This document shows, piece after piece, positions 4,421 to 55,682 of a stretch of 61,517 nucleotides of DNA (positions are counted from its first letter, which is position 1; each line of letters opens with the position of its first letter). Location of the stretch: positions 1 to 61,517 of the forward strand of contig JAFZOL010000049.1 of assembly GCA_017550625.1 (NCBI GenBank), given 5' to 3'. The notes below the pieces were generated by a model. That model made no database searches, was not told the DNA's origin, and was given only the letters and a program-made list of their open reading frames with translations. This DNA is from Clostridia bacterium (GTDB taxonomy: Bacteria; Bacillota; Clostridia; Oscillospirales; Acutalibacteraceae). Position numbers and translations under genes: made by a program.

Positions 4421-4652
4421 AGCCGCCGGAGGCGGCGGGCAAGCGCGCTGCGCGCGCGGGTGCACGGTCCACGGGTGCACGGGAGCGCGGCGATGCCGCG
4501 CAGCACCGTTCACACCCCGTCACGAATCATCCCGCATCATTTTGTATTTTGTATTTTGTATTTTTCATTCTTCCCCTGGCCCCTGGCCCCTGGCCTCTGG
4601 CCCCTGGCCTCTGGCCCCCGGCCCCTCAATTTTGTATTTTGCATTTTGCATC
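4421..4652. repeat. Composite intergenic element (hairpins, GTGCACGG, GGCCYCT, TTTTGTA modules)
   Basis: It occupies almost the whole gap before tldD. In order it holds the hairpin gccgccggaggcggc, the hairpin gcgcgctgcgcgcgc, degenerate GGGTGCAC units, a gcgcgg/ccgcgc hairpin, a TTTTGTA run at 4540-4566, about seven TGGCCYC 7-mers at 4574-4625 and a second TTTTGTA/TTTTGCA run at 4628-4652. The tldD ribosome binding site follows at once. No gene is seen here. Confidence 0.8.
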
Positions 4653-4672
4653 AATAAAGGAGGATCCCCCCT

Positions 4673-6106
4673 ATGAAAGCACCCTTCTCCCCGTATCTTG
4701 CGGGGATCAAACCCGGGCTCCGGGCGCTGCTCGGCGCCCTGCAGCCCCATTTCGAGTACCTGAGCCTGTTGGCGACGGACTCCAAGGGCCTTGCGGTGCG
4801 CGTGTCGCGCCACGCGAAGAGCGTCGCGAGCTCCACGATGACCACCGAGCGCGGCGTGGTGGTGCGCGCCGCGAAAAACGGGCTTTACAGCGAATACGCG
4901 TTCAACCGCTTCGACCCCGAAAAGGCCGACGAAAAGGCCGACGAGATCTTAGCGGCGCTGAACGCCCAGTTCGCCCTGCTCGAGGCGACCGGCACCGCCG
5001 TGTACGACACCCCGCTGCTGCCGGACGAACCCGAAACCCTGTTCGTGGAAAAAGAGACCGCCGAGATGCCCGAAGAGACGGACGTGAAGGCCCTCGTCGA
5101 AAAGATGGTGGCCCTGCAGGAGGCGGCGCTCGCAAAGGACGAGCGCATCATCGAGTGCATGGTCAACGCCCAGTCCACCCATATCTCGAAGCTCTTTCTC
5201 ACGAAGAACCGCGATCTGTCGCAGAGCTACGTCTATTCCGAGGGCGTGATCGTGCCCTTCGCCACCGACGGCGAAAAGACCGTGAACGGCTATCAGGGCG
5301 TGGCGGATATCCGCGGCCCCGAGATCTTCGACACGCTCGGCGACCGCCTCGACAAGGCCGTTTCCACCGCCGTGGAGCTGTTGTCCGCGGGGCGCATCGA
5401 GCCCGGCGAATACGACGTCATCTCGTCGCCCGAGGTGTCGGGCCTCATCGCGCACGAGGCCTTCGGCCACGGCGTGGAGATGGATATGTTCGTCAAGGAC
5501 CGCGCGCTCGGCAAGGACTATATCGGCAAGCGCGTCGGCAGCGATTACGTGACGATGCACGAGGGCGCGCTCTGCGCCGAAAACGTGGCGAGCTACGCGT
5601 TCGACGACGAGGGGACGCTCGCCGGCGACGTGACCGAGATCGACAAGGGCATTCTGAAAACCGGCGTGTGCGACGCCCTGTCGGCGCTCCGGCTCGGCAC
5701 CGTGCCCACCGGCAACGGCAAGCGCGAGAACTTCGAGCACAAGGCCTATACCCGCATGACGAACACCGTGTTCGACTCGGGCGAGAGCACGCTTGACGAG
5801 ATGATCGCCTCGATCGACTACGGCTACCTGCTCGAGGGCATGGAGAGCGGCATGGAGGACCCGAAGCACTGGGGCATCCAGTGCATCCTGAAGCTCGGCC
5901 GCGAGATCAAAGACGGCAAGCTCACGGGCAAGATCGTGGCGCCCATCATTATGACCGGCTACGTGCCGGAGCTGCTCGGCAGCATTTCGATGCTGTCGTC
6001 CGACCGCGAGGTCTTCGGCAACGGCGGCTGCGGCAAGGGCCACAAGGAGTGGGTCAAAGTTTCCGACGGCGGCCCCTATATGAAAATGAAAGCGAGGCTG
6101 GGCTGA
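4673..6106 (+). CDS. tldD: TldD family metalloprotease subunit
   Basis: 477 residues, similar in length to Escherichia coli TldD. The catalytic motif HEAFGH is at residues 261-266 and a conserved cysteine lies in GGCGKG (about residue 453). In the family these two histidines and this cysteine bind the active-site zinc. TldD works as a heterodimer with TldE/PmbA and degrades unfolded or short peptides; in other bacteria it helps mature modified peptides. AAAGGAGG precedes the ATG. The stop overlaps the start of tldE (ATGA), so the two subunits are translationally coupled. Confidence 0.95.
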   Translation: MKAPFSPYLAGIKPGLRALLGALQPHFEYLSLLATDSKGLAVRVSRHAKSVASSTMTTERGVVVRAAKNGLYSEYAFNRFDPEKADEKADEILAALNAQFALLEATGTAVYDTPLLPDEPETLFVEKETAEMPEETDVKALVEKMVALQEAALAKDERIIECMVNAQSTHISKLFLTKNRDLSQSYVYSEGVIVPFATDGEKTVNGYQGVADIRGPEIFDTLGDRLDKAVSTAVELLSAGRIEPGEYDVISSPEVSGLIAHEAFGHGVEMDMFVKDRALGKDYIGKRVGSDYVTMHEGALCAENVASYAFDDEGTLAGDVTEIDKGILKTGVCDALSALRLGTVPTGNGKRENFEHKAYTRMTNTVFDSGESTLDEMIASIDYGYLLEGMESGMEDPKHWGIQCILKLGREIKDGKLTGKIVAPIIMTGYVPELLGSISMLSSDREVFGNGGCGKGHKEWVKVSDGGPYMKMKARLG

Positions 6107-7380
6107 TGACTGAAAAACTGATCGCTCTGTTAAAGGCTTCGGGCGTGCACGCGTGGGAAGTGACCGACGTTGTGACGGACGCCTGGGAGTTCTATTTCAT
6201 CCGGCATAAGCTGGACCAGAACCGCGCCGTATCGGTGCGCCACGTTTTCGTCAACGTGTTCGAGACCACCGACGGCTGCAAGACGCTGGGCTCCGCCTCC
6301 GCCGAGGTGCCGCTCGGCGCGACCGAGGACGAGATGAAAAAGCTGATAAGCGACCTCTCGTACCGCGCCACCCTCGTCAAAAACGCCTATTACCCCCTGA
6401 ACCCCGCCGTGGCCGACGAAGGCGAAAACGTGAAGATCGACGTGCCCGCCATCGCCAAGGCCTATATCGGCGCGCTCAGGTCCCTGCCCGAGACCGCCAC
6501 CGAGGATATCAACAGCTACGAGATCTTCGTGCGCGCCAAGAGCCGCCGCTTTATCAATTCCAACGGCGTGGACGTGCGCGAAACGTATCCGTCGTCGATG
6601 GCCGAGGTCATCGTGAACGCGCGCAGGGACGGCCACGAGATCGAATTATACCGCAGTTTTACCTCGGGCGAATGCGACGAGGCCGTGCTCAAAGAGGACC
6701 TTGTTGCCGCCATGCGGCAGGGCCGCGACCGCCTCGCCGCCGAAAAGACCCCCGCCCTCGGCAAGGTGGCGGTGGTGTTCTCGTCCGACGACGCGTGCGA
6801 GATCTACGATTATTTCTCCACGCGCCTCGACCCCGCCATGCTGTTCCGTCATTTTTCGGATTATAAGATCGGCGAGCCCATCAGCGACGCGCTCGCGGGC
6901 GACAAAGTGACCGTGCGCACCGTGAAAACCCTGCCCGGCTCTTCCGAAAACTTCAGTTACGACCGCGAGGGCGCGCCCATCCGCGACGAAACGCTGATGG
7001 AAAACGGCGTGCCGCGCTTTTTCACCGGCGGGCGCATGTTCTCTTGCCTCATGGGCCTCGAAAACACCTTCATCCCCACGAACGTGGTGTTCGGGGGCGG
7101 CACGAAGACCGAGGAGGAGATCCGCCGCGGCGCCTATCTCGAGGCCGTGGAGTTCTCGGACTTCCAGGTGGACCCCGTCACGGGCGACGTGTTCGGGGAA
7201 CTGAGACTCGGCTATTACCACGACGGGCAGGGGCACGTCACCCCCGTGTCCGGCGGCTCGGTGTCCGGCGATATGGGCGAGTTCCTCAAGACCATGACCA
7301 TGTCGAAGGAAACGAAACGCAACGACAACATTGTGTACCCGAAGCTCACGCGCCTCGAGGACGTGACCTTCGCGGGCTGA
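6106..7380 (+). CDS. tldE: TldE/PmbA family partner subunit
   Basis: 424 residues starting at the ATG that overlaps the tldD stop codon. As expected for the non-catalytic partner, it has no HExxxH motif. The C-terminal part, GGTKTEEEIRRGAYLEAVEF and SGGSVSGDMGEFL, is typical of PmbA. It pairs with TldD to form the hollow protease dimer. A strong terminator follows, so ychF-to-tldE may form one transcription unit, although an intergenic element separates the first two genes from tldD. Confidence 0.93.
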   Translation: MTEKLIALLKASGVHAWEVTDVVTDAWEFYFIRHKLDQNRAVSVRHVFVNVFETTDGCKTLGSASAEVPLGATEDEMKKLISDLSYRATLVKNAYYPLNPAVADEGENVKIDVPAIAKAYIGALRSLPETATEDINSYEIFVRAKSRRFINSNGVDVRETYPSSMAEVIVNARRDGHEIELYRSFTSGECDEAVLKEDLVAAMRQGRDRLAAEKTPALGKVAVVFSSDDACEIYDYFSTRLDPAMLFRHFSDYKIGEPISDALAGDKVTVRTVKTLPGSSENFSYDREGAPIRDETLMENGVPRFFTGGRMFSCLMGLENTFIPTNVVFGGGTKTEEEIRRGAYLEAVEFSDFQVDPVTGDVFGELRLGYYHDGQGHVTPVSGGSVSGDMGEFLKTMTMSKETKRNDNIVYPKLTRLEDVTFAG

Positions 7381-7395
7381 GCGAAACAAAAAAAG

Positions 7396-7430
7396 AAAGC
7401 TGAAAGCGGCCAACCGCTTCCAGCTTTTTT
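7396..7430 (+). terminator. Terminator after tldE
   Basis: Stem AAGCTGAAAGCGG / CCGCTTCCAGCTT with one internal mismatch and a CCAA loop, followed by TTTTTT. It begins 16 bases after the tldE stop codon. Confidence 0.92.
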
Positions 7431-7449
7431 GTTATATATCCATATTCCC

Positions 7450-7537
7450 GTGCACCCATGCACCCGTGCACCCGTGCACCCATGCACCCGTGCACCCGTG
7501 CACCCGTGCACCCATGCACCCATGCACCCGTGCACCC
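7450..7537. repeat. 8-bp minisatellite RTGCACCC, 11 units
   Basis: Eleven consecutive 8-mers, each GTGCACCC or ATGCACCC in mixed order, end at a small hairpin (gcgccgccgagcggcgcc). It lies between the tldE terminator and the convergent phosphodiesterase gene. Every frame is an open Cys/His/Pro-rich string, which I do not regard as coding. Confidence 0.92.
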
Positions 7538-7559
7538 GCGCCGCCGAGCGGCGCCTTTT

Positions 7560-8564
7560 TCAGACCAACGCCGTGCACAGCGTGATGAGCCACATGAAGC
7601 GCGAGATGATCCAGTCGAGCGGGTCGCGGTAATCGGGGCGCAGCTCGCCCTTCACGTCGGCAAACACGTGCGCCGGCACGCGGGCGGTCATTTTGTTTGT
7701 CTTTTCAATGCCGAGCGCATAGAGCGTGATCGCCGCCACGTCGCGGTCGCGCGTGTCGGCGTCCATCGTGCCGCCCGGGACCGTGGTCTTGCCGACGACC
7801 GCCACGGTGGTGTTGGTCTCGCGCATCGAGAACCTGCCGTGGCCGCCCTCTTTTTTGTGGCCGTGGTCGGCGCACACGATGAACAGGCCGTCTTCCATCA
7901 GGCCGTTGCGCTCGACGGCGTCGTAAATGCGGCCCACGTATCCGTCGGCGGTATGGATCGCGTCAAAATACTCCTGCGAGGCGCTGCCGTGGGCGTGGCC
8001 GGCGGCGTCCACGCCGTCGAGCTGCACGAAGAACACGGCGGGGGCGTTGCCCGCGTCGAAATAGTCGCAGATCGCGTCGGTCAGCTTTTCGTCGTTCGTG
8101 ATATTCACCTTCGTCACGCCGATGTCGTTTTCGATGATGCCGAAGTTGACGTTGTTCCAGTTGACGAACGAGGCAAGCTCCGCGTCCGGAAAGGCCTTGC
8201 GCGCCAGCGCGAACACGGAGGGATAGGCGGTGTCGGACGACCGCTCGTTTTCGCCGGAGTTGCCGTTATGGATGAGGTGCTTGAAATATGAAACGCCGGT
8301 CAGGATGGAGCCCCAGTTCGGGCCGCTGTCGGTGGGCACCTCGGTGCGGGCGGTGTAGTCCACCGCGCCGTTTGCGAAGATGCGGTCGAATTCGGGGGTG
8401 TCGGCGTCCTTGATGAAACGCCCGGCGCCGTCCACGCCGATGATGAACACGTGCTTATACGCGCCGAAGGAGCTTTGCTCCGTGCCGGGGCCCCCGGCGA
8501 ACGCGGGCGCGGCGCACGCGAAAACGAGCAGGATCGTAATGAGAACGGAAATGAGTTTCTTCAT
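7560..8564 (-). CDS. Secreted alkaline phosphatase/phosphodiesterase-like hydrolase
   Basis: 334 residues. MKKLISVLI at 8564 is chosen because AAAGGAG lies 8 bases upstream and a cleavable signal peptide (about residues 1-22, ending APAFA) follows at once. Metal-ligand motifs of the alkaline phosphatase superfamily appear in order: FIIGVDGAG, a nucleophile region TDSGPNWGSILTG, DGVDAAGHAHG, CADHGHKK and GGHGRF. This matches type I phosphodiesterase / nucleotide pyrophosphatase proteins that act outside the cell on phosphoesters. The substrate cannot be deduced. The C-terminus (LDWIISRFMWLITLCTALV) is hydrophobic and may anchor the enzyme. Confidence 0.88.
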   Translation of the reverse strand: MKKLISVLITILLVFACAAPAFAGGPGTEQSSFGAYKHVFIIGVDGAGRFIKDADTPEFDRIFANGAVDYTARTEVPTDSGPNWGSILTGVSYFKHLIHNGNSGENERSSDTAYPSVFALARKAFPDAELASFVNWNNVNFGIIENDIGVTKVNITNDEKLTDAICDYFDAGNAPAVFFVQLDGVDAAGHAHGSASQEYFDAIHTADGYVGRIYDAVERNGLMEDGLFIVCADHGHKKEGGHGRFSMRETNTTVAVVGKTTVPGGTMDADTRDRDVAAITLYALGIEKTNKMTARVPAHVFADVKGELRPDYRDPLDWIISRFMWLITLCTALV

Positions 8565-8596
8565 GGTCGGCACTCCTTTTCTCCGGCGAAGGGCCG

Positions 8597-8634
8597 GTCT
8601 GCTCTTATTATAGCAGACGCGCGGAAAAAAACAA
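8597..8634 (-). promoter_or_regulatory. Promoter with inverted repeat over -10 (phosphodiesterase gene)
   Basis: The minus strand shows TTGTTT (8634-8629), a 16-bp spacer and an extended -10 TGCTATAAT (TATAAT at 8612-8607). A 7-bp inverted repeat GTCTGCT / AGCAGAC (8597-8603 and 8612-8618) brackets the -10 box and could be an operator. Confidence 0.6.
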
Positions 8635-8645
8635 GCCCCTTGCGC

Positions 8646-8681
8646 AAAAACCGAGCCGCCCTGCAGATCAGGGCGGCCCGG
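8646..8681 (-). terminator. Terminator of the dockerin operon
   Basis: A long GC stem GCCGCCCTG / CAGGGCGGC with T runs on both sides, so it can work in either direction. It lies about 90 bases after the last minus-strand gene of the dockerin operon. Confidence 0.85.
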
Positions 8682-13965: not shown

Positions 13966-14245
13966 CGCGTTTCACGCGGCGGGTGCACGGGTGCACGCCC
14001 CACGGGTGCACGGGGACGAGGATTCGCCGCCGCCTGTGGAAGACGCCCCCGCAGTGCGGGGGAGATGTCGGCGAAGCCGACAGAGGGGGACGGCCCGGTT
14101 AGGGATGAAGGCGAACCGCAGTCTGGAGAAAACAACGAGCGTGCCGAGCGCTCCAAGCGAAGGCAGGCGACTATGTTTTCGACTGGGAAAGGCGGCATAG
14201 CCGCGCAGTTATGAATGAAAAATACAAAATACAAAATACAAAATT
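13966..14245. repeat. Composite intergenic element after dockerin gene
   Basis: In order: hairpin gccgcgtttcacgcggc, GGGTGCAC units (13980-14011), GGGGACGAGGATTCGCCGCCG, hairpins cccccgcagtgcggggg and gtcggcgaagccgac, the 84-bp dispersed repeat (14103-14186), and AAAATAC units (14219-14245). No plausible gene is present. Confidence 0.75.
14103..14186 (+). repeat. 84-bp dispersed repeat, copy 1
   Basis: It begins ggatgaaggcgaaccgcagt and ends atgttttcgactgg. It matches the reverse complement of 42878-42961 with a single mismatch, although the flanking sequence differs. In both places it sits within a composite intergenic element. Confidence 0.9.
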
Positions 14246-14256
14246 ATATAACTGGG

Positions 14257-14288
14257 AACCGGGGGTTTAACAAAGCCTCCGGTTTTTT
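14257..14288 (+). terminator. Terminator-like hairpin of the 14.2-kb gap
   Basis: AACCGGGGG pairs with CCTCCGGTT (one G-T pair) and is followed by TTTTTT. It probably ends the PadR-dockerin transcript. A closely similar hairpin sits at 23322-23355. Confidence 0.75.
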
Positions 14289-14294
14289 GTCGCC

Positions 14295-14449
14295 CGTAGC
14301 ACGGCACCTCAGTGCCGTTCCCGGAACATCATTCTTTTTTAATGGCAGCCGATTGGAAGCGGCTTCCGGCTGTCGCGGAAAGCGGTTCGCAAATTCTGAA
14401 CGGGCTCAAATTTCCGTCGAAACGAACGGCACTGAGGTGCCGTGCTACG
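14295..14449. mobile_element. 155-bp MITE-like element with perfect 25-bp inverted ends
   Basis: Arms at 14295-14319 and 14425-14449 are exact reverse complements (25 of 25). Each arm also contains its own palindrome, CGGCAC-CTCA-GTGCCG. The 105-bp interior has a further imperfect hairpin (cagccg...cggctg near 14346-14372) and no gene. There is no transposase nearby and no clear target duplication, so the mobile label is an inference. Confidence 0.55.
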
Positions 14450-14536
14450 GACTGGCGTGTATGCCGCCCGCACATCACGAAAGCCGCAAATCCATTCGCG
14501 CAGCGGCAGAGACCCGCCGCGCTGCTATTTAAAACT

Positions 14537-14618
14537 CCCGTGCACCCGTGTACCCGTGGACCGTGCACCCGCGCGGCCGCGCCGCGCCCCTGGCCCCTAA
14601 TTTTGCATTTTGTATTCT
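14537..14618. repeat. Composite intergenic element before the kinase-like gene
   Basis: Degenerate GTGCACCC units (14538-14571), a gcgcggccgcgccgcgc hairpin, two TGGCCCC units, then TTTTGCATTTTGTATT. It carries the inverted orientation of the modules at 13966-14245. The remaining gap (14619-14732) shows only a weak possible promoter (TTAACT, 17 bp, TTTATA) and a gggcccggttcccgggc hairpin. Confidence 0.7.
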
Positions 14619-23194: not shown

Positions 23195-23428
23195 GGGAAT
23201 GCGTAATTAAGGGGCCAGAGGCCAGAGGCCAGGGGCCAGAGGCCAGAGGCCAGAGGCCAGGGGCCAGAGGCCAGAGGCCAGAGGCCGGGGGCCGGGGAAA
23301 AATTCATAATGCAGAATAGAGAAAGCCGGGGGTTCAATCGAACCTCCGGCTTTGCTTATATTATTTGTTTGAATTCCGCGCGGCTTTGCCGCGCCCCTGG
23401 CCTCTGGCCTCTGGCCCCTGGCCCCTGC
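23195..23428. repeat. Composite intergenic element with inverted GCCAGRG arrays
   Basis: A small hairpin ccgcctgcggcgg is followed by twelve GCCAGRG/GCCGGGG 7-mers (23214-23297), CATAATGC, a terminator hairpin, the hairpin gcgcggctttgccgcgc, and about five TGGCCYC units in inverted orientation ending at 23427. The arrays at the two ends can pair. It lies between two convergent genes. Confidence 0.9.
23322..23355 (+). terminator. Terminator after the lon operon
   Basis: Stem AGCCGGGGGTTC / GAACCTCCGGCT (one G-T pair) with loop AATC, then TTTGCTT. It sits in the centre of the composite element. T runs are weak, so it may be only partly efficient. Confidence 0.65.
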
Positions 23429-26150: not shown

Positions 26151-26162
26151 GGTTTTTTATAA

Positions 26163-26410
26163 GGGCGCACAGGGCGCACAGGGCACACAGGGAGGAATGC
26201 AAAATACAAAATACAGAATACAAAATTATTGTGAGGGGTGAGAAGTGAGGGGTGAGGAGTTGCGGAAGGGCTTCGCCCTTACCTGTTTTTATAATGCGAG
26301 CCGCAGGCTCCGACACTCCTCACCGCTCACTCCTGACTCCTAACTTTTTCCCGTGCATCCGCCGCGCTTTGCGCGGCCATTCCCTGTGTGCCCTGTGCGC
26401 CCTGTGCGCC
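26163..26410. repeat. Composite intergenic element with GGGCGCACA ends
   Basis: Left end: three 9-mers of the type GGGCGCACA (26163-26191), AAAATAC units (26199-26226), then TGAGGGGTGAG runs. Centre: hairpin aagggcttcgccctt, TATAATGCG (26290-26298) and hairpin gagccgcaggctc. Right end: CACTCCTCACC runs, hairpin ccgcgctttgcgcgg, and three CCTGTGCGC units inverted relative to the left end. No gene is visible. Confidence 0.85.
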
Positions 26411-26416
26411 CAAAAC

Positions 26417-28997: not shown

Positions 28998-29021
28998 AAA
29001 GCTCCGGAAAACCGGGGATCC

Positions 29022-29179
29022 TGATAGCGCTCCACGAAAGCTCGTGACAGTCCGCGGGATGTTCTCTCGCGGCCCAGGCAACCCGGACGGTTTTATCCGG
29101 ATCCCTTCGGCGTCGGTCCCTTTCGCGGCGGGCAAAACCGCCCGTGCGTCCGTTACTGATGGCCAACGCGCCTCTATCG
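29022..29179 (-). promoter_or_regulatory. Lysine riboswitch (L-box) aptamer
   Basis: The minus-strand RNA shows the lysine aptamer signatures in order: GAUAGAGGCGCG, CAGUAA, GAAAGGGACCGACGCCGAAG, GGGUUGCCUGGG, GGACUGUCAC, and GUGGAGCGCUAUC. The last closes the P1 stem with the first. With lysine bound, the downstream terminator should form and switch off the ABC operon. The gap 28926-29275 is fully explained by promoter, aptamer and terminator. Confidence 0.93.
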
Positions 29180-29195
29180 GTATGAAATTATGGAC

Positions 29196-31654: not shown

Positions 31655-31975
31655 TGCGGCGGCGGGTGCACGGGTGCAAGGGTGCACGGGGGTTGGAAGC
31701 CGCCGGTGGCGGCGGGTGCACGGGTGCATGGGTGCACGGGTGCACGGGGGTTGGAAGCCGCCTGCGGCGGCGGGTGCACGGGAGTTGGGATGATTAAAAG
31801 TTTAGCGGAAAGGGGAGAAGGCAGGGAATGGTTCGCCTTTATCTGTTTATTTGAAATGCGGTCGGCAGTTCCGTGCAGGGCGGGGTACGACAGGTTTTTT
31901 TGCGGTACGATTCTGCGCGCGAAGCGCGCTCCCGTGTACCCGTGCACCCGTGCACCCATGCACCCGCGCGCCTCT
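31655..31975. repeat. Composite element of hairpin plus GGGTGCAC units, three tandem copies
   Basis: Three copies of a unit made of a GC hairpin (gccgcctgcggcggc, or the variant gccgccggtggcggc), 1-4 GGGTGCAC 8-mers and a GGGGTTGGAA- or GGAGTTGGGA-like tail lie at 31655-31800. About 120 bp of other sequence follows (including cctttatctgtttattt and cgcgcgaagcgcgc), then inverted GTGCACCC units at 31935-31968. The 360-bp gap between glnS and gltX has no gene and no clear promoter. Confidence 0.85.
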
Positions 31976-35830: not shown

Positions 35831-35912
35831 GATGTTGGATGTGAGGTGTTGGATGTCGGATGAAGAGCGGCTGCGCCGCGCATCTCACATCTCACATCCC
35901 ACATCTCACACT
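35831..35912. repeat. Composite intergenic element with GGATGTGAGG / TCTCACATC arms
   Basis: A run of GATGTTGGATGTGAGG units, the hairpin gcggctgcgccgc, and an inverted run of CATCTCACATCTCACATC. It is a compact example (82 bp) of the same inverted design seen in the larger gaps. Confidence 0.75.
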
Positions 35913-39035: not shown

Positions 39036-39265
39036 GGGCGCACAGGGCGCACAGGGACGAGGGGCCAGAGGCCAGAGGCCAGGGGCCAGGGGCGCGGCAA
39101 AGCCGCGCGGTGATGAACGATCCCTGTCCTGATTCATAATGCGTGCCGCGCCGCTCTTCACCCCTCAACCCACACTCCTTACCCCACGCTAAATAATTAT
39201 TTTGTATTTTATATTTTGCATTCTGCATTCTTTTCTGGCCCCTGGCCTCTGGCCTCTGGCCCCTC
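39036..39265. repeat. Composite intergenic element between atpB and atpE
   Basis: Two GGGCGCACA units, four GCCAGRG units (39064-39091), hairpin gcgcggcaaagccgcgc, CATAATGCG (39135-39143), a TCACCCCTC-like run, TTTTGTATTTTATATTTTGCATT (split by one changed base), and four inverted TGGCCYC units ending at 39264. The atpE ribosome binding site follows about 27 bases later. Confidence 0.88.
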
Positions 39266-39304
39266 AATTGCCGTATTTTCCATCCCCCTGAAAGGAGCTT
39301 TCAT

Positions 39305-42675: not shown

Positions 42676-44468
<1,793 letters not shown>

Positions 44469-44469: not shown

Positions 44470-44712
44470 CCGCGCGCTGCGCGGCAGGCAAAGGGCGCAC
44501 AGGGGCGAGGGGCAAGAGGCCAGAGGCCAGAGGCCAGAGGCCAAGGACGCGCTTCGCGCGCATATATGTCGCTTGCGCGAAACGATTCAAAGCCTACAGT
44601 GCATTTTATAATGGGGTAAGGAGCGGAGCCCCTTCCACCATTCCACATTTCACACTTCACATTCATTTTGTATTTTGTAGTTTGTATTTTGCATTTTGCA
44701 TTCTTCCCCCGG
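44470..44712. repeat. Composite intergenic element between atpD and atpC
   Basis: Hairpin gccgcgcgctgcgcggc, one GGGCGCACAG unit, five GCCAGAG-like units (44513-44545), hairpin gcgcgcttcgcgcgc, TATAATGGGG (44607-44616), hairpin gggg...gagcggagcccc, a TTTCACACTTCACATTC run, TTTTGTA/TTTTGCA units (44667-44700) and CCCCCGGCCC. Confidence 0.88.
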
Positions 44713-46183: not shown

Positions 46184-48331
46184 ATGCGTTGCAAGAATTG
46201 CGGCCGCGAAGTCGCGCCCGGTTCCATTTTCTGCACCTATTGCGGCGTCAGCGTCGAGGCGCCGAAGCCCGCGGCACAGCCGGGTCCCGACCCGGCCGCC
46301 GCCCGTCCTCAGCCCGCCGCACCCGCCGGCATGCCGGCGCAGCCGGTCCGGAATCCCGCGCAGGCGGCTCAGCCGCAGCAGCCGGTGCAGAGGCCCTTCC
46401 AGCCCGCCCAGCAGGTCCCGCAGGTGCAGAGGCCTTTCCAGCCCGCCCAGCAGGTCCCGCAGGCGCAGAGCGCCTTCCGGCCCCCGCAGCAGGTCTCGAC
46501 CCAGCCGGTTCAGAGACCCGTCCAGCCCGCGCAGCCGCAGGCACAGGCGCAGCCGACGGTCCAGAAGGCCGTCGAGTCCGCGCCGCAGGCACAGCCCATC
46601 CAGAGACCCGTCCAGCCCGCGCCGCAGCCCATCCAAAAACCCGCGCAGCCGCAGGTACAGGCACCGCCTGTTCAGAAGCCTGCCGAGCCCGCGCCGCAGC
46701 CGGTCCAGAAGCCTGCCGAGCCCGCGCCGCAGCCTGTTCAGAAGCCCGTTCCGCCCGTGACTCCGCAGCAGATCCAGAAGGCTGCCGAGCCCGCGCCGCA
46801 GCCTGTTCAGAAGCCCGTGCCTCCCGTGACTCCGCAGCAGATCCAGAAGCCTGCCGAGCCCGCGCCGCAGCCTGTTCAGAAGCCCGTGCCTCCCGTGACT
46901 CCGCAGCAGATCCAGAAAGCTGTCGAGTCCGCGCCGCAGGCCCAGCCGATCCAGAGACCCGCGCAGCCGCAGGTACAGGCGCAGCCTGTTCAGAAAGCGG
47001 TCGAACAGCCGGTGCAGGCGCAGCCGATCCAGAGACCCGTCCAGCCCGCGCAGCCCGTCCCGCAGCCGGTCCAGAAACCCGCGCAGCCGGTGCAGGCGCA
47101 GCCCGTCCAAAGACCCGTCCAGCCCGCGCAGCAGCCCGTGCCCGTGCCCGCGCCCGCGCAGGCGAAGCCGCAGAAGCAAAAGGCCGAAAAACAGCCGAAG
47201 CCCGCGAAAGAGCCGAAACCCGCGAAAGAGCCGAAACCCGCGAAGCAGCCGAAGCCCGAAAAGCAGGCCGGCGAAAAGAAGAGCAAAAAGGGCCTGATCA
47301 TCGGCATCGTCGTCGGTCTGATCGCCGTGGCGGCGGCCGTCGTGTGCTTCCTGTATTTCACGAACGGCGCGCGGCAGGTCGTGAGCGCGCTCAAGAGCGG
47401 CGACTACGAGAAGGCGTACGAGCTCTATGAAGAGAAATACGAGGGCAAGGATACCTCCGCCCTCGCCAAGGCGCTCAAGGACCGCATCAATGAGATCCGC
47501 GAGGGCTTCGTTGCCGGCGACGTCACCTATGTTGACGCGGACAAGGAGCTGTCGGTGATCGAGCGCATGAACATCGCCGACGTGAACGTCGATCTGACGC
47601 AGGCAAGGGCCCTCATCGGCGAACTCGACGTCTCGCGTCAGGCGTTTTACGACGCCGAGGACTTCTACCGCACCGGCAACTACGCCGAGGCGATCCGCAG
47701 TTATCTGAACGTCTCGTCGATGGATTCCCGCGCCGCCGAAGCGAAAGAAAAACTCAGCGCCTGCGTTTCGACCTACGCCGACAAGCTGCTCTCGCAGGTG
47801 AACGCCGGTGAGGCCGGCGGCAAGGAAGTCATGGAGGCCGCCGACCTGCTTGAGCAGGCGACCCTTCTTGTGCCGGACGACGCCGCCATCCGGGAGAAAT
47901 ACGAGGCGGTCAGCGCCGTGGTGCCCGTGTCGGTGAAGGATCTTTCGCCCTCCAACGTCAACGGCAACTGGCTCAAGAGCTTCAACGACCGCAAGGACCT
48001 GCAGGGCAACGACTATAACGACGCGATCAACTATTTCATCCCGGGCATGGACGCTTTCGGCGAGTATGCGATCAGAGGGAAATACACCAAGGTGACCGGC
48101 CGCGTTTCGAACCTCGGGCGCAGCGAGCCGATCGCGGAGCGCGAGACCGTGTTCCACATCCTCGCGGACGGGAAAGAGATCTATACCTCCCCCGTGATCA
48201 CCACGAAAACGCAGGCCGTGACCTTCTCGGTCGAGATCCCGGCGGGCGCCGAGGTCGTCAAGTTCCTCACCACCGCCAACGGCTACGGCAAGTCCGAGAT
48301 CCTCGTGACCGACCTGCTGCTCTGGAAATAA
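46184..48331 (+). CDS. Zinc-ribbon membrane protein with long Pro/Gln-rich segment
   Basis: 715 residues. An N-terminal zinc ribbon (CKNCG, FCTYCG) is followed by about 340 residues of Pro/Gln/Val/Ala repeats (PAPQPVQKPVPPVTPQQIQK), a Lys/Pro stretch, a membrane helix (GLIIGIVVGLIAVAAAVVCF) and an outer region of about 330 residues. The outer region has alpha-helical repeats (VVSALKSGDYEKAYELYEEK, YRTGNYAEAIRSYL) that resemble TPR units, and a C-terminal beta-sandwich. Compare the genes at 33609 and 54048. Overlap with the C-terminal segment of other families was not recognised. Confidence 0.87.
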   Translation: MRCKNCGREVAPGSIFCTYCGVSVEAPKPAAQPGPDPAAARPQPAAPAGMPAQPVRNPAQAAQPQQPVQRPFQPAQQVPQVQRPFQPAQQVPQAQSAFRPPQQVSTQPVQRPVQPAQPQAQAQPTVQKAVESAPQAQPIQRPVQPAPQPIQKPAQPQVQAPPVQKPAEPAPQPVQKPAEPAPQPVQKPVPPVTPQQIQKAAEPAPQPVQKPVPPVTPQQIQKPAEPAPQPVQKPVPPVTPQQIQKAVESAPQAQPIQRPAQPQVQAQPVQKAVEQPVQAQPIQRPVQPAQPVPQPVQKPAQPVQAQPVQRPVQPAQQPVPVPAPAQAKPQKQKAEKQPKPAKEPKPAKEPKPAKQPKPEKQAGEKKSKKGLIIGIVVGLIAVAAAVVCFLYFTNGARQVVSALKSGDYEKAYELYEEKYEGKDTSALAKALKDRINEIREGFVAGDVTYVDADKELSVIERMNIADVNVDLTQARALIGELDVSRQAFYDAEDFYRTGNYAEAIRSYLNVSSMDSRAAEAKEKLSACVSTYADKLLSQVNAGEAGGKEVMEAADLLEQATLLVPDDAAIREKYEAVSAVVPVSVKDLSPSNVNGNWLKSFNDRKDLQGNDYNDAINYFIPGMDAFGEYAIRGKYTKVTGRVSNLGRSEPIAERETVFHILADGKEIYTSPVITTKTQAVTFSVEIPAGAEVVKFLTTANGYGKSEILVTDLLLWK
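46721..46927 (+). repeat. 69-bp coding tandem repeat, three units
   Basis: Three near-identical 69-bp units each encode the 23-residue PAPQPVQKPVPPVTPQQIQK plus three residues. They lie inside the Pro/Gln-rich segment and point to recent length change. Confidence 0.85.
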
Positions 48332-50269: not shown

Positions 50270-50334
50270 GTTGCGCGGGGCGCGGGGATATGTTAATATA
50301 AATGCAGATTTATGCAGAGACGGGAGGCAGTGGG

Positions 50335-51708: not shown

Positions 51709-53960
51709 AAAAAGCCTTTTCGATGCTCCGGGGCGTGAAAACGCATTGGCGCGCGCCCGCCGAGGGGCGCTACATGCCCTACCGCGAGGTGTTCTCGCTC
51801 TCGTTCGGCGGCATCGGCGTGCGCATGATCGTATATTGCGTGTCGCAGATGATATTGGCCGCGAACAACGCGCTGATCGGCAACACGATCGGCGTGCCGC
51901 CCGATACCCTATATCTGTTGTATCTGCTGGGCGTGCTGTCGTCGTTCCCGCTCACGGGCCTTCGGGCGAAGATGATCGACAACACCCGCTCGATGAAGGG
52001 CAAATACCGCCCCTATCTCATCTCGATGGGCATCCCCACCGTCGTGCTCGGCGTCGCCTTCGTGTGGATGCCCTACGACAAAATGGATCTCTTCGGCAAG
52101 AGCGTCACGGTGCTGCTCTTCAACATCGGGTTCCAGTTTTTCTATAACTTCTTCAACGATTCCTACGATTCTCTGATCAACGTCCTCTCGCCGAACTCCA
52201 TCGAGCGCTCGGACGTGCTGTCGATCCGCAGCGTGGTCGAGAACCTCTCGCCCTCGATCATCAACATCGTGTTCCCCCTGCTCGCGAAGGCGGTCACGGG
52301 GGAGGACAAATTGTTCGACCTCAGGATCTACCGGATCCTGTTCCCGCCCATCCTGCTGCTCGGGTTCCTGATCTCTCTTCCCGTCTATTTCGGCACGAAA
52401 GAAAAGCTCGTGCGCGCGCGTTCGCACGTGGCGGGCGTGAGCTTTGCCGACGCCCTCAGGGCCGTGGCGCGCAACAAATACTTCTGGATCATCTCGCTCG
52501 CGGGGTGGCTCGGCTTTCTCGAGGGCGCGTTCAACGAGATCTTACGGTGGATGTATAATTATCAGGGCGCGGCCACGGCGGGGCAGTATTCGCTCATCAC
52601 CGCCATCGCCGGCAACGCGAGCTTCTGGCCGAACCTTGTGGCGCCGTTTCTCATCCGCAGATACGGCAAAAAGAAGATCCTCATCGGCACCAATCTTTTG
52701 AACATCGGCTTCATCGCCCTCATGCTGCCTGCCGTGCGCATGACCGGCACGCCCGGCGCGATCTGGATCCTATTGTTCTTCACGTTCATCAACCAGTTCA
52801 TCTCGTCCCTCGGGCACCTGCTCACGCCGAGCGTGAACGCCGACATCCGCGACTATCAGCAATACGTCAGCGGCGAGCGCATCGACGGCATGTTCGCCGC
52901 GGTGGGGCTCATCGGCGGCCTCATCTCGATGGGCACGGGCTACGTGCTGCCCGCCATTTACAAGCGCGTGGGGCTCAACGCCGCCACCGCCGTGAAGCTC
53001 GGCTACACCGCCGAAAACGTTTACGACGTCCTCTATAACCGCGGCTATTTCGTGAACATCTGCTCGGTGCTCATCCTGGCGTCGGTCGTGGGCGCGGCGC
53101 TGAACGTGATCCCGTATTTCTTCTACGACCTGTCCGAAACCAAACAGCGCGCGATGGTGCGCATTCTGGCGCTGCGCGCCGCCGCCGAGGACCGTGCCGC
53201 CGGCACGCTGACCGAAGAGGCCGCCGAAAAGGCGCAGGCAGACGTGCGCGCGGCAAATGAGGCGGTCGCCGCCGCGGGAGAGACCGATCTCAACGCCCTC
53301 GCCGATGAATACCGCGCGACGAAAGATAAAACGGAGAAAAAAGAACTGTCTTCACGCCTTGCCGAGGCAAAAAAGACCGTCGCGGCGGGCGAGGAGGCAG
53401 CCCTCGTGCTCGAGGAGCTTCATTGGTTCGGTTCCGATACGGGCAAAGCCGCCCTCCGGCGGGCAGCCTCCGTGTGCGAAGCGGGCGTCGGCGGGTGCCT
53501 GACGCTCGACCTCCCGACGAAAAAAGAGGCAGCCGCCCTGCCGAAAACCACCCCCGACGAGCGCGAACGCCGCCGCGAGGCGCTGGTGTTCGCCTCCGAG
53601 CTCGGGGTCGCGCGCAGGACCGCCGCCCGGTATTACCCCGATGGTGTCGAACCCTTCGACGAAGCGTCTCTCACCGCCGCCGTGGAGGAGTGCGACCGCC
53701 TCGAGATCCGCCACGCCGCGCTGCTTGCCGAGATCAAGCGCGCGAACACCGGGGGCGACAAAGAATCCGCCGCTGCGCTCAGGGAGGAGCTAAACCGCGT
53801 GCGCGCCGAAAAGCGCGCCGCCGAACAGGATTTCAAAACCCTGTCCGCCGCCTTCGCCCGCCACCGCCGCGTGTCGGCGCCGTATCTCTCGTCGCGCCGT
53901 CTATTAGACCGCGCCGCGTATTACGAGACCCTGTCCGCCCCGGCCGGGACGGCGGAATAA
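51702..53960 (+). CDS. GPH/MFS sugar transporter with long C-terminal helical extension
   Basis: 752 residues from a GTG at 51702, with AAAGGAGG 7 bases upstream. The first about 490 residues form a 12-helix transporter (SSFPLTGLRAKMIDNTRSMK, GKYRPYLISMG, DIRDYQQYVSGERIDGM). About 260 residues then follow that are charged and helical (AAEDRAAGTLTEEAAEKAQ, KKELSSRLAEAKKTVAAGEE, LREELNRVRAEKRAAEQDF), with a coiled-coil character. Ordinary GPH transporters end near 450-500 residues. The tail should lie in the cytoplasm and may regulate transport or bind the co-encoded GH30 enzyme. Confidence 0.88.
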   Translation: MLKKAFSMLRGVKTHWRAPAEGRYMPYREVFSLSFGGIGVRMIVYCVSQMILAANNALIGNTIGVPPDTLYLLYLLGVLSSFPLTGLRAKMIDNTRSMKGKYRPYLISMGIPTVVLGVAFVWMPYDKMDLFGKSVTVLLFNIGFQFFYNFFNDSYDSLINVLSPNSIERSDVLSIRSVVENLSPSIINIVFPLLAKAVTGEDKLFDLRIYRILFPPILLLGFLISLPVYFGTKEKLVRARSHVAGVSFADALRAVARNKYFWIISLAGWLGFLEGAFNEILRWMYNYQGAATAGQYSLITAIAGNASFWPNLVAPFLIRRYGKKKILIGTNLLNIGFIALMLPAVRMTGTPGAIWILLFFTFINQFISSLGHLLTPSVNADIRDYQQYVSGERIDGMFAAVGLIGGLISMGTGYVLPAIYKRVGLNAATAVKLGYTAENVYDVLYNRGYFVNICSVLILASVVGAALNVIPYFFYDLSETKQRAMVRILALRAAAEDRAAGTLTEEAAEKAQADVRAANEAVAAAGETDLNALADEYRATKDKTEKKELSSRLAEAKKTVAAGEEAALVLEELHWFGSDTGKAALRRAASVCEAGVGGCLTLDLPTKKEAAALPKTTPDERERRREALVFASELGVARRTAARYYPDGVEPFDEASLTAAVEECDRLEIRHAALLAEIKRANTGGDKESAAALREELNRVRAEKRAAEQDFKTLSAAFARHRRVSAPYLSSRRLLDRAAYYETLSAPAGTAE

Positions 53961-53972
53961 CGCGTTCGCGCC

Positions 53973-53994
53973 CGCAAGAAATGCTTGCGTTTTC
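53973..53994 (+). terminator. Possible terminator of the GH30-GPH operon
   Basis: Stem CGCAAG / CTTGCG then TTTT, nested within a larger GCGCCCG / CGGGCGC pairing. It overlaps the -35 region of the next promoter. Confidence 0.5.
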
Positions 53995-54013
53995 GGGCGC
54001 AGTCTGCTATACT
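53985..54013 (+). promoter_or_regulatory. Promoter of the short zinc-ribbon gene
   Basis: TTGCGT, a 17-bp spacer and an extended -10 TGCTATACT, 35 bases before the start. Confidence 0.72.
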
Positions 54014-54047
54014 GAAACAAGAATCTGTGAATCCGGGAGGATGAAAT

Positions 54048-54701
54048 ATGAACTGTGCGTTTTGCGGCAGCAATATCCCCGAAGGCGCCGCCGTGTGCCC
54101 CGCGTGCGGCATGCCCGCGAAGTCGGTGTCCGACCTGAACGCGAATGCGCCCGAAATGCCCGAGGGCCCCGCCGAGGCGCCCGCGCCGTACGCGTCCGCT
54201 CCCGAGGCTCCCGCCCCCGCGCCCGCGGCGGACGACTGGACCCAGAACTGGAAAAAGGGCACCGTGGCGCCTGCCAAAAAGCCCGAAGAGGACCGCAAAA
54301 AGCGCATCCTCGTGATCGCCGCGATCGCCGGCGTGCTGCTGATCGGTGTGATCGCGGCGTTCGTGCTGATCTTCGGCGGCAAAGGTGAAGAAGACCCCGG
54401 CGAGACCGAGCCGTCCGTGCGTGAGGACGCGTCCGTGTCCGAAAACAGCGAATCGACCGAAGCGGAAGAAACGACAGCCGCCGACGCGCCGACGACAGGG
54501 GAGCCGACCATCGAAGAACCTGCTACCGAAGCGACGACCGAAGAACCGACGACCGAAGAGCCGACCGCCGAGACCCCGTCCGGCGAAGACGAAGACGAAT
54601 CCAAGTCGCTGCCGCTCGAGAGCGGGACCAAGGCGCAGATCGAGCCCACCACCGAGGCCGCGATCCGCCCGACCGAAACGACGACGCTGGTGACCGAATA
54701 A
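54048..54701 (+). CDS. Short zinc-ribbon membrane protein with Thr/Glu-rich tail
   Basis: 217 residues with GGGAGGATG upstream. An N-terminal zinc ribbon (CAFCG, CPACG), a Pro/Ala-rich linker, a membrane helix (ILVIAAIAGVLLIGVIAAFV) and an outer tail of about 100 residues rich in Thr, Glu and Pro (TTEEPTTEEPTAE). The architecture matches the two larger zinc-ribbon proteins at 33609 and 46184, but without a folded outer domain. The function is unknown. Confidence 0.85.
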   Translation: MNCAFCGSNIPEGAAVCPACGMPAKSVSDLNANAPEMPEGPAEAPAPYASAPEAPAPAPAADDWTQNWKKGTVAPAKKPEEDRKKRILVIAAIAGVLLIGVIAAFVLIFGGKGEEDPGETEPSVREDASVSENSESTEAEETTAADAPTTGEPTIEEPATEATTEEPTTEEPTAETPSGEDEDESKSLPLESGTKAQIEPTTEAAIRPTETTTLVTE

Positions 54702-54746
54702 AAAAAGCGGCGCCGCCGCACCGCCGATATTTCACATCCAACACTT

Positions 54747-54781
54747 AAAAACCGCTTCGTTTTCGAACGAAGCGGTTTTTT
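54747..54781. terminator. Bidirectional terminator
   Basis: Stem AACCGCTTCGTT / AACGAAGCGGTT with loop TTCG and runs of A and T on either side, between two convergent genes. Confidence 0.93.
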
Positions 54782-55500
54782 CAATGCCTTGTGTCGTCGG
54801 TGAAGCGTTCGCAGAAGCGGGCGGCGAAGGCGGGGTCCTCGCCCGCCGCGTCGAGGTGCCCCAGATCCCCGTATCTGAGCGCCACGAACTGGGCGATCCC
54901 GTCCTCGCGCTCCTCGGTCACGAGGTGCGTCACCGAGGTGGTCAGCGCCCGGAAGTTGTGCCAGAGGATCACCGGCGAGATGCAGAAGAGGTGCGACAGG
55001 ATCACGCTCTCGACGCCGAAGTGGCAGAAGAGCACGATGACGTCGGCGTTCGGGCGCACGGCGCGGTAGAGGCGCCCTTCGCGCACGTAGCCGTGGCCGG
55101 CGAGAAAGGCGTCGAGCTTTTCGGTGACTTCGCGGTAGCAGTCGCCTACGCCGTATTCGGCCATCAGCGGGACTTTATCCCATTTCTCATAATCGTAATA
55201 CGCGTCCACGGTCGTCCAGTAAGAGGGGTAGCGGTCCCACGGGCAGCCGTGGCCGCCCTCGTGGGTCGGCACGCGGCCTTCGAACTCCCTGAGCCAGTCG
55301 AGCGTTTCGGCTTTGCGCCCCGTTTTTTCGAGGGTGTAGGACGCGGTGCGTTTCGCCCTGCCGAGCGGCGAGCAGTAAAACGCCGTGACGTTGAGCTTCG
55401 CAAGGCGTTCTGCCAATAATTTCGCGTCGGCGTCGCCCTTCGGCGTCAGCGAATCGTGCTCGTAATCCGGATCGCCGTGGCGGACAATATATATTTGCAT
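54781..55500 (-). CDS. Histidine phosphatase family protein
   Basis: 239 residues with AAAGGAG upstream. The RHG motif is at residues 7-9 (IYIVRHGDPDYE), the second catalytic histidine in LFCHFGVE, and the arginine in SPLGRAKRTASY. These are the catalytic signature of the phosphoglycerate-mutase-like phosphatases (branch 1). An insertion with WDRYPSYWTTVDAYYDYEKW sits in the middle. The substrate is unknown; cobalamin-pathway or sugar phosphatases are possible relatives. Confidence 0.92.
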   Translation of the reverse strand: MQIYIVRHGDPDYEHDSLTPKGDADAKLLAERLAKLNVTAFYCSPLGRAKRTASYTLEKTGRKAETLDWLREFEGRVPTHEGGHGCPWDRYPSYWTTVDAYYDYEKWDKVPLMAEYGVGDCYREVTEKLDAFLAGHGYVREGRLYRAVRPNADVIVLFCHFGVESVILSHLFCISPVILWHNFRALTTSVTHLVTEEREDGIAQFVALRYGDLGHLDAAGEDPAFAARFCERFTDDTRH

Positions 55501-55528
55501 AGGAACTCCTTTTCAGACGGGGAAGAAG

Positions 55529-55682
55529 GGGCCAGAGGCCAGAGGCCAGGGGCCAGTAAAAATTCAAAATGCAAAATACAAAATACAAAACTTAATGAAA
55601 CCGGGTTCTGGAGATTTCTGTTTTTATGCTTTTATGTGTCTTTTCTCAACCCCTGGCCCCTGGCCTCTGGCCTCTGGCCCCT
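55529..55682. repeat. Composite intergenic element, GCCAGRG arms
   Basis: Four GCCAGRG units (55531-55556), AAAATGC/AAAATAC units (55566-55589), a short spacer with aaaccgggtt, and four or five inverted TGGCCYC units (55651-55682). It lies upstream of the histidine phosphatase and downstream of the GPH transporter, both on minus. Confidence 0.88.

Follow-up and report, generated by a model that had tools for sequence, protein, structure and literature searches.

Nested arrays of short tandem units in the gaps of a Clostridia bacterium genome and their possible relation to four-helix-bundle (S23/IVP) genes

Array elements between the genes of the window

The window analysed here is the whole stretch of 61,517 nucleotides from a Clostridia bacterium, and the gaps between its protein genes, three of them inside the atp operon, hold 11 elements built from short tandem units (Table 1). 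Array calls at periods of 7, 8 and 9 bp number 22 (16, four and two, respectively). All 22 are intergenic in a hand-made gene list in which gaps make up 11.7% of bases, in agreement with the preliminary description, which had the elements never interrupting a gene; in that list, the genes before the gaps at 31655 and 35831 are given starts downstream of the start codon of the longest open reading frame, and those longest frames, if used, would overlap the arrays in part. Base-shuffled gaps yielded no arrays in 200 rounds. Other periods in the window gave either no arrays (4, 5, 10 and 11) or three that are all coding (6 and 12). The modules described earlier were recovered at their positions in all 11 gaps: GGGTGCAC with a unit of 8 bp, GGGCGCACA with a unit of 9 bp, and the GCCAGRG, AAAATRC and GATGTGA/GGGGTGA types with units of 7 bp. 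Three consecutive GCCAGRG units match 165 times genome-wide, against none for the reversed control, and GCCAGRG x3 is present in only two of 20 genomes of the genus. A search of Rfam at gathering score gave no match in the gaps; a lysine riboswitch at another place in the window was the only match.

Table 1. Array elements of the window, with arms in forward (fwd) or reverse (rev) orientation and, for some gaps, the support from folding (z, relative to shuffled sequence).
Position	Composition	Support
4421..4655	Composite: GC hairpins, GGGTGCAC arm fwd, then AAAATAC, GCCAGRG and AAAATAC arms rev	
7447..7538	One-armed array, 8-mer CCCGTGCA x 11.5 copies, reverse orientation	
13966..14618	Composite with GGGTGCAC arm fwd and long unit at ~14000-14190; further arms AAAATAC fwd (14219-14244), GGGTGCAC rev (14540-14571), AAAATRC-type rev (14605-14618)	
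23213..23427	GCCAGRG x10 fwd (23213-23293), short interior, GCCAGRG x4 rev (23393-23427)	z -10.5
26162..26411	Nested hairpin: GGGCGCACA-type x3, then AAAATAC-type x3, then GTGAGRR array; GGGCGCACA-type x3 rev	z -14.8
31655..31966	Two to three units of GC hairpin plus GGGTGCAC array, ~50-58 bp each, fwd; GGGTGCAC-type rev arm, 4.5 copies	
35831..35912	GGATGTG-type fwd arm and CATCTCA rev arm, small GC hairpin	
39036..39268	atpB-atpE gap: GGGCGCACA x2, then GCCAGRG x4 fwd; GC hairpin; AAAATRC-type and GCCAGRG rev	
42676..43050	atpG-atpD gap: GCCAGRG fwd, AAAATAC rev, long unit at ~42881-42976, GCCAGRG rev, GGGCGCACA x2 rev	
44470..44712	atpD-atpC gap: GGGCGCACA and GCCAGRG fwd, AAAATRC-type rev; arms differ	z -1.7
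55529..55682	GCCAGRG x3, then AAAATRC fwd, GCCAGRG x4 rev; near-complete hairpin	z -8.4

The preliminary description also had, in most gaps, a module at the left end recur inverted at the right end, so that the whole gap can fold as one long hairpin. In eight of the 11 gaps one module type does lie in forward orientation to the left and in inverted orientation to the right, the exceptions being those at 4421 and 44470, whose arms differ, and that at 7450, which has one arm; however, because the modules are nested, the inverted module is frequently not the outermost one. Folding is better than that of shuffled sequence in nine gaps (z -5.2 or lower), but not at 44470 or at 4421, where the hairpin is no better than shuffled (z -0.1). 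The element at 26162..26411 has its unit variants mirrored from outer to inner. Nesting order is biased, AAAATRC lying outside the GTGAGRR type six times and the reverse order never occurring. The layout extends to 400 kb of the genome: among 32 clusters with arrays in both orientations, 30 have all forward modules on the left and all reverse modules on the right (11.7 expected), and 21 of these 30 share a module between the two arms, against 14.4 by permutation (p=0.003). It is possible, given the strong predicted hairpins, that these are RNA elements acting between genes. In gaps of at least 100 bp, arrays were tallied in 26 of 71 co-directional, nine of 21 convergent and four of 25 divergent gaps, using a crude gene caller that got some window genes wrong and had 27 of 124 arrays lying within open reading frames; we therefore make no claim on a preference for operon gaps.

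Related elements in other genomes

Whole elements differ at orthologous sites, as seen in four gaps of two relatives, G009 and G011. Instead of the window element, the gap at 31655 (tRNA-synthetase) carries arms of the AAAATGC/AAAATAC type in both relatives. The atpB-atpE element is absent from both, and those of the atpG-atpD and atpD-atpC gaps are absent from G009, with different elements in G011. Such absence or difference in the same gaps of other species supports the earlier suggestion of a mobile or recombining family, as do gene-carrying versions elsewhere, presence and absence in phages and direct repeats at two tRNA-Leu genes. Slippage alone, with neither whole-element gain or loss nor an excess of inverted ends, would have refuted the preliminary description, and it is not what was observed.

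The best lead outside the window is a four-helix-bundle gene (4HB, S23/IVP, PF05635) flanked by AAAATAC arms in G011 (L111). AAAATRC x3 occurs at five places in this relative (58% complete), one of them L111, and AATTCGG x3 occurs in G021 at 34 places (grouped from the listing), one flanking a 4HB gene (L113) and three lying on the atp contig, so that the same heptamer occurs with and without a 4HB gene in one genome. PF05635 is present in 24 of 26 genus genomes and in none of 14 control genomes. Among 80 named 4HB loci, 69 have full flanks and 11 do not; period-7 arrays lie on both sides in 39 of the 69, on one side in 19 and on neither in 11. The corresponding figures are 0, 12 and 49 of 61 at control places 1 kb away, and 0, 3 and 47 of 50 at 2 kb. 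The period of arrays near named 4HB genes is 7 in 97 of 100, 8 in two and 9 in none. 4HB genes between such arrays are found in several phyla, plasmids and phages, and two Planktothrix plasmids have a 4HB gene among CCCCAAT/GATTTAC-type arrays. In G186, a period-7 array accompanies ten of 13 4HB matches fetched (16 found), every unit being different. Arrays are missing at 19 of 51 clade-1 and nine of 64 clade-2 loci in a mixed set with duplicates. Of 22 viral 4HB loci, four are without an array and 14 have a left array only, and one-sided arrays occur in four of 13 viral control places 2 kb away. Three Nostoc plasmid 4HB genes lie 0-15 bp from their neighbours and thus leave no room for arrays.

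The heptamers vary with the protein. In one clade, 69 of 74 heptamers fit ARTKNNN against a shuffled mean of 25; since they were anchored to ARTK by best rotation, the result rests on this shuffled control. Heptamer and 4HB protein co-vary with 13 homologous-flank pairs excluded (Mantel r 0.22, p 0.0002) and also when only pairs from different phylum groups are compared (r 0.17, p 0.0008), as they do in a second clade of 43 loci, identical or near-identical proteins left out (r 0.20 and p 0.0002 once homologous flanks are removed, p 0.0003 before), all of these values being uncorrected for phylogeny. The co-variation test omitted six of the 80 named loci, which had no array; L123 was dropped, and neither alignment (A1 or A2) includes L107, L110, L114, L118 or L120-L122 (L107 and L118 have stop codons).

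Filled and empty sites for a 4HB element could be compared in phages; in the phage pair the element replaces about 60 bp of spacer and therefore allows neither a clean duplication nor an exact insertion point to be read. When the 80 named loci were screened for direct repeats together with the 4HB matches of L358-L405, 12 loci had a repeat of at least 14 bp. The only clear cases are elements in two tRNA-Leu genes, flanked by direct repeats of 45 and 23 bp; in seven of the other ten the repeats are the arrays themselves (period-7 match of at least 0.7), the remainder being L149, L194 and L401. No target duplication beyond chance was found at the 11 window elements, whose longest direct repeats of 4-8 bp average 5.5 against 5.9 at random places; in this they are unlike a MITE of a DDE transposon, for which a target-site duplication is expected.

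Origin of the arrays

The explanation that we favour, and consider reasonably probable, is that the window gaps hold gene-less copies or remnants of very small 4HB mobile elements, nested in one another. In our reading these 4HB elements are relatives of 23S rRNA intervening sequences. A complete element would span about 430 bp and consist of a 4HB gene (PF05635/TIGR02436, S23/IVP family) between two inverted arrays of 7-bp units, the unit going with the element's own 4HB protein. The copies sampled in this genome are without the 4HB gene, and insertion of several array types beside or within one another would produce the modular, mirrored and nested composites. The 4HB protein may bind the heptamer array of its own element, whether in the form of DNA, RNA or a single-strand hairpin, draw the two arms to each other and, helped by host enzymes, direct the copying of the element into another gap. 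Gene-less copies might be moved in trans or be left-overs, and the hairpin may make insertion between cistrons tolerable, by analogy with 23S rRNA intervening sequences. We know of no catalytic activity of 4HB proteins.

Several observations count against this explanation. Neither the window nor a 400-kb sample of the same genome yielded a 4HB relic. The sole PF05635 match of this genome (C18, L106) is flanked by short-hairpin arrays, not window modules, and we found no 4HB gene with GCCAGRG arms. The period-8 and period-9 modules of the window, the 11 of 69 named genes and the loci of the mixed set without arrays, the viral loci with one-sided or no arrays, the Nostoc plasmid genes, the scarcity of GCCAGRG x3 in the genus and the lack of target duplication in the window weigh in the same direction.

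It is possible, though rather unlikely, that the elements are instead RNA structures of the host: selection would have maintained long hairpins between cistrons for the termination, stabilisation or cutting of polycistronic mRNA, while the modules turned over by neutral drift. The folding of nine of the 11 gaps far better than shuffled sequence and the three elements inside the atp operon would fit such a role. However, all three atp gaps are plain short spacers in G009, and in G011 one is a plain spacer and the other two carry different elements; the modules are not conserved in sequence, two of the 11 gaps have no better hairpin, and there are versions with a gene in which the arms vary with the protein. 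A similarly low likelihood attaches to the idea that the arrays came first, by an unknown process such as templated, telomere-like 3'-end addition at breaks, and that 4HB genes are passengers inserting into or living off the palindromes. This idea accommodates the inward-pointing arms of same strand polarity, the arms of different types that one element may have, and the excess of array-only over gene-bearing places in G021, G011 and G000, but not readily the heptamer type following the 4HB protein across phylum groups, nor the separate unit at each of ten array-bearing 4HB loci in G186.

REP/BIME or other Y1-transposase elements (RAYT, IS200/IS605) are a very improbable source. REP are single tagged palindromes of 20-40 bp, and although the window elements are also intergenic palindromes, their units are tandem 7-9-mers, which bears out the earlier remark that they are unlike REP. 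G000 has a single weak Y1_Tnp match (35 bits), and G018 has none despite five AATTCGG x3 and seven 4HB matches. Neither a Y1 transposase nor a reverse transcriptase was accepted as constant partner, since neither tracks the arrays: Y1_Tnp and RVT_1 each have matches in 16 of the 26 genomes (15 above the cut-off), and G006 has no RVT_1 match despite 24 AATTCGG x3 matches. Ordinary microsatellite slippage in unconstrained gaps could explain the varying array lengths and the location of the window arrays in gaps, but it is hardly credible given the strict forward-then-reverse order, on which slippage alone was rejected (30 of 32 clusters), the mirrored unit variants, the periods of 7-9, the types shared genome-wide and the gain and loss of whole elements.

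There is also a broader proposal, which we hold more tentatively and with somewhat more doubt than belief: 4HB (S23/IVP) genes with their own mirrored heptamer arrays may form a class of bacterial mobile element that ranks among the smallest and the most widespread. Each protein would read a 7-bp code of its own (ARTKNNN in one clade) and move a hairpin-bounded cassette into inter-cistron gaps, and many unexplained heptamer repeats (GGGAATC, TAACTGA, cyanobacterial STRR, the window modules) may be gene-bearing and gene-less copies. The present data link two old puzzles, intergenic heptamer repeats and the function of S23/four-helix-bundle genes, by a rule that is open to test, namely that every 4HB protein has a heptamer of its own. 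Should this hold, a mobile element found across several phyla and in plasmids and phages is under the direction of a protein of about 120 residues in which no catalytic motif is known, a natural set of protein-to-7-bp specificities is at hand, and the repeat-rich gaps of this genome are explained as gene-less composites.

Comparison with known systems

Cyanobacterial STRR are tandem heptamers in gaps and in this resemble the arrays described here; among the literature entries listed, none linked them to 4HB genes. DGR Avd (NF033474) gave weak matches to three of five 4HB proteins scanned, with scores of 22-31 bits, which are below the cut-off of 80. Classical intervening sequences are excised from RNA by RNase III and sit in 23S rRNA, whereas the elements here lie between protein genes, those sampled in this genome are gene-less and their array types are nested. 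PF05635 bears the name 23S_rRNA_IVP, and a study of Coxiella describes an intervening sequence of about 430 nt with an S23 ORF, tandem GACAGAT heptamers before it and terminal inverted repeats that form a stem, suggested as a possible mobile element (PMC4990558). The likeness to 23S rRNA intervening sequences with an S23p ORF lies in that ORF, the inverted-repeat stem and the tandem heptamers (PMC4990558).

Similar heptamers have already been published for Coxiella (PMC4990558) and for Xanthomonas (PMC4692102); apart from the Coxiella case, our literature search turned up no paper in which heptamer arrays are connected with 4HB genes. The TAACTGA repeats of Beggiatoaceae, cyanobacteria and Bacteroidetes are intergenic tandem heptamers, also found inside operons, for which a mobile origin was considered; they are reported as direct repeats with one inverted case, in contrast to the mirrored arms here, and that paper has no mention of 'S23' or 'four helix bundle' (PMC4679880). 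In Xanthomonas (GGGAATC) and Nostoc (GGGGA(C/T)T), heptamer repeats form arrays mainly in gaps; the source studies one heptamer type per organism, unlike the several module types and periods here, states that in general the repeats lacked an association with mobile elements, and does not mention 'S23' or 'helix bundle' (PMC4692102). Two Xanthomonas genomes have 70 and 75 heptamer pairs in convergent orientation, and the Xanthomonas heptamers and the elements of the window and the 400-kb sample are alike in forming intergenic arrays in convergent pairs (PMC4692102).

Layout of the intergenic arrays

The elements in the gaps of the window are real and more than ordinary. In each of the eleven gaps listed in the preliminary description (named by their starts as 4421, 7450, 13966, 23195, 26163, 31655, 35831, 39036, 42676, 44470 and 55529), gap-by-gap inspection confirmed the modules that had been claimed for them. 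A motif-free test returned 16 arrays of period 7, four of period 8 and two of period 9 in the window, all 22 of them intergenic, with gaps making up 11.7% of the window by a gene list compiled by hand from ORFs and Pfam matches. In this list the genes preceding gaps 31655 and 35831 were given start codons downstream of those of the longest ORFs, which overlap part of the arrays. Base-shuffled window gaps yielded no arrays in 200 rounds. Across the whole genome (G000), (GCCAGRG)3 has 165 matches and three copies of AAAATRC have 58, with none for either control (reversed in the case of GCCAGRG). Since (GCCAGRG)3 is present in only two of 20 genus genomes, G000 and its relative G009, the GCCAGRG module is lineage-specific. 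Long GCCAGRG arrays lie at the ends of three G000 contigs (see table), and therefore the assembly probably breaks at such arrays and the array counts are probably lower bounds.

The arrays follow a layout rule. When 399,841 bases of G000 (the window and loci L060-L079) were scanned for arrays of at least two copies, 54 array clusters were found. Arrays of both orientations occur in 32 clusters, of which 30 have every forward array ahead of every reverse one, where 11.7 are expected for random orientation. The two exceptions are a stretch of contig C3, which reads as two side-by-side elements, and one cluster that closes contig C42. Both arms share a module type in 21 of the 30 ordered clusters (14.4 by permutation, p=0.003). 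Nested modules have differing junction sequences and their order is partly fixed: D7 lies outside E7 six times and never inside it, A8 outside D7 six times versus once the other way and C9 outside B7 five times versus twice, while B7 and D7 occur in both orders (8 and 5). On folding, nine of the 11 window gaps reach z <= -5.2, and gaps 4421 and 44470 give no clear signal. Elements 42676 and 13966 also carry a non-tandem unit that was without match in an Rfam scan of the window and has several matches in the relatives G009 and G011. The longer-period repeats of the window are unrelated to the gap modules.

Modules of the gap elements and positions of individual features (4HB, four-helix bundle)
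Feature	Position	Unit or content	Period (bp)
Module A8		GGGTGCAC	8
Module B7		GCCAGRG	7
Module C9		GGGCGCACA	9
Module D7		AAAATRC	7
Module E7		GATGTGA or GGGGTGA type	7
Long array at contig end	C17, 5-82	GCCAGRG
Long array at contig end	C41, 34-167	GCCAGRG
Long array at contig end	C46, 14-126	GCCAGRG
Unit of element 42676	window, ~42881-42976	~100-130 bp
Unit of element 13966	window, ~14060-14190	~100-130 bp, orientation opposite to that in 42676
Longer-period tandem repeat	window, 7-1032	overlaps ORF	126
Longer-period tandem repeat	window, 46666-47266	overlaps ORF	18-102
Lysine riboswitch	window, 29017-29184 (-)	89 bits (Rfam)
4HB locus of Monoglobus plasmid	L236, 2495-2843	4HB gene with internal stop codons at hsdS-hsdR junction, arms recognisable
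Translated heptamer array	L221, 2930-2969	new N- or C-terminus of adjoining phage ORF
Translated heptamer array	L226, 2676-2720	new N- or C-terminus of adjoining phage ORF
Direct tandem	L230, 200-760	4HB gene end, then second copy, joined via heptamer array

Gain and loss of whole elements

Four gaps were compared with the two nearest relatives among the available genomes, G009 and G011, whose AtpG proteins are 80% and 79% identical. The atpB-atpE gap (39036) is a short plain spacer in both. In G009 the atpG-atpD (42676) and atpD-atpC (44470) gaps are plain spacers too; in G011 the former holds a different element, made of GTTGGATG units with a repeated 112-bp piece, and the latter another element. 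At gap 31655 all three genomes have elements whose modules differ. Thus, whole elements come and go, and at the gaps compared with these relatives the gain and loss sought by the preliminary description in orthologous gaps is borne out.

In G011, the AAAATAC-type arms of gap 31655 flank a small gene (L111) for a four-helix-bundle protein of the S23/IVP family (4HB; PF05635/TIGR02436). Elements with such a gene leave traces of mobility elsewhere. In two phage loci (L246, L247) an element separates the gene for the small terminase subunit from that for the large one. It takes the place of some 60 bp of spacer, and within its array one reading frame ends and the following one begins; the element is absent from this junction in three loci (L248, L249, L257) whose large terminase is 96% identical. 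Likewise, at a gene junction in L326-L329 the array of an element now codes a new N-terminus, and the genes overlap or touch at this junction in the relatives L330 and L332-L335 (query gene 62-75% identical). In two genomes, elements at tRNA-Leu are flanked on both sides by a direct repeat of the tRNA start (45 bp in L368, 23 bp in L376) and leave an intact tRNA-Leu beside them; the repeat lies a few bases from both arrays in L376, and about 19 bp separate the left copy from its array in L368. None of the 11 window elements has flanking direct repeats of this kind. Neither a reverse transcriptase (RT) nor a Y1 transposase gene is a constant partner in 26 genus genomes. On plasmids, 4HB elements lie between genes of a DISARM locus, hsdS/hsdR, nrdB/nrdA and cas6/cas4, and the Monoglobus plasmid locus L236 is a decaying copy.

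Four-helix-bundle genes and their private heptamers

Of 26 genus genomes, 24 contain a PF05635 match, as do 96 of 200 genomes sampled across the family; 14 control genomes gave none. Among 29 genus 4HB loci whose flanks were judged by eye, 16 have inverted short arrays on both sides, and the remaining 13 mostly have arrays of short hairpin units. A second kind of locus (L106, L109, L118, L126, L372, L378 and others) has flanks of different short hairpins joined by a constant short linker (such as ATGATG or ATATCAC) and no heptamer arrays. Among the best 80 of 572 relatives from a scan of named genomes, whose hosts include Bacteroidota, Clostridia, Acidobacteriota, Cyanobacteria, Lentisphaeria/Verrucomicrobiota, Ignavibacteria, Proteobacteria and Fibrobacter, 69 loci had full 450-bp flanks; period-7 arrays lie on both sides of 39 of these, on one side of 19 and on neither side of 11. 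At 1 kb from the genes the corresponding counts are 0, 12 and 49 (n=61), and at 2 kb 0, 3 and 47 (n=50). Period 7 accounts for 97 of the 100 arrays near the gene in this set, and purines make up over half of the bases in 51 of 59 left arrays versus 9 of 57 right arrays. Viral loci, near-identical copies included, have a left array in 18 of 22 cases, four of them with a right array as well; one-sided arrays occur in 4 of 17 viral controls at 1 kb and 4 of 13 at 2 kb. A counter-case comes from Nostoc plasmids, in which three 4HB genes are separated from the adjacent genes by 0-15 bp, leaving no space for arrays.

The heptamer and the 4HB protein vary together. In the first clade of the best 80 of 572, ARTKNNN at best rotation fits 69 of 74 heptamers (45 of 50 distinct ones), where 2000 shuffles average 25.2 and never exceed 39, and the free bases of these heptamers follow the 4HB protein. 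With 13 pairs that have homologous flanks taken out, protein and heptamer distances correlate (r 0.22, p 0.0002, 2688 pairs, without tree correction), and mean heptamer distance is 0.22 in the 19 closest protein pairs versus 0.43-0.45 in distant pairs. GC content as the cause of this correlation was checked and is not the explanation. The correlation holds for pairs across phylum groups only, shuffled within groups (r 0.17, p 0.0008, without tree correction; Bacteroidota 27, Clostridia 29, others lumped 18, assigned from record titles), and in the 43 loci of a second clade (r 0.20, p 0.0003, without tree correction; r 0.20, p 0.0002 minus four homologous-flank pairs). In a single genome, G186, ten of 13 fetched 4HB matches (16 found) have a period-7 array, each with a different unit, and three have none of period 7. 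These differing units indicate that the repeat belongs to the element and not to the genome. The solved structures 2rld and 2gsc, both from this protein family, have five chains of one sequence each; such an assembly would be compatible with a putative ring that binds several copies of a site.

Gene-less copies and known systems

In G021, G011 and G000, places with arrays alone are more numerous than those with the gene. Three copies of AATTCGG occur at 34 places (grouped) in G021, one of which flanks a 4HB gene (L113) and three of which are on the atp-operon contig, and G006 has 24 such matches, none on a contig with a listed 4HB gene. In G011, three copies of AAAATRC occur at five places, one of them at a 4HB gene. 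G000 has a single PF05635 match, on contig C18 and flanked by hairpin units, and no 4HB relic was found in its sampled elements; the window elements are therefore array-only members. Given their architecture and the AAAATAC arms shared with a gene-bearing partner in the related species G011, the best reading is that they belong to a mobile family and lack its gene; where the gene is present, the family takes the form of a 4HB cassette flanked by inverted arrays of its own private heptamer. Three points weigh against a simple version of this reading: the gene is missing, two modules have units of 8 and 9 bp, and target duplications are absent. In addition, no gene-bearing partner was found for modules other than AAAATAC.

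Heptamer repeats have been described before. In two Xanthomonas genomes GGGAATC heptamers are arranged as convergent pairs, 70 in one genome and 75 in the other (PMC4692102), and neither S23 nor helix bundle occurs in the text of that article; TAACTGA repeats are a third published case (PMC4679880). In a literature search by title and abstract, with bioRxiv outside its scope, heptamer arrays were tied to a 4HB gene only in the intervening sequence of the Coxiella 23S rRNA gene. There, three tandem heptamers precede an S23 ORF and a 28-bp inverted repeat forms a stem; the sequence has been proposed to be of mobile origin (PMC4990558).
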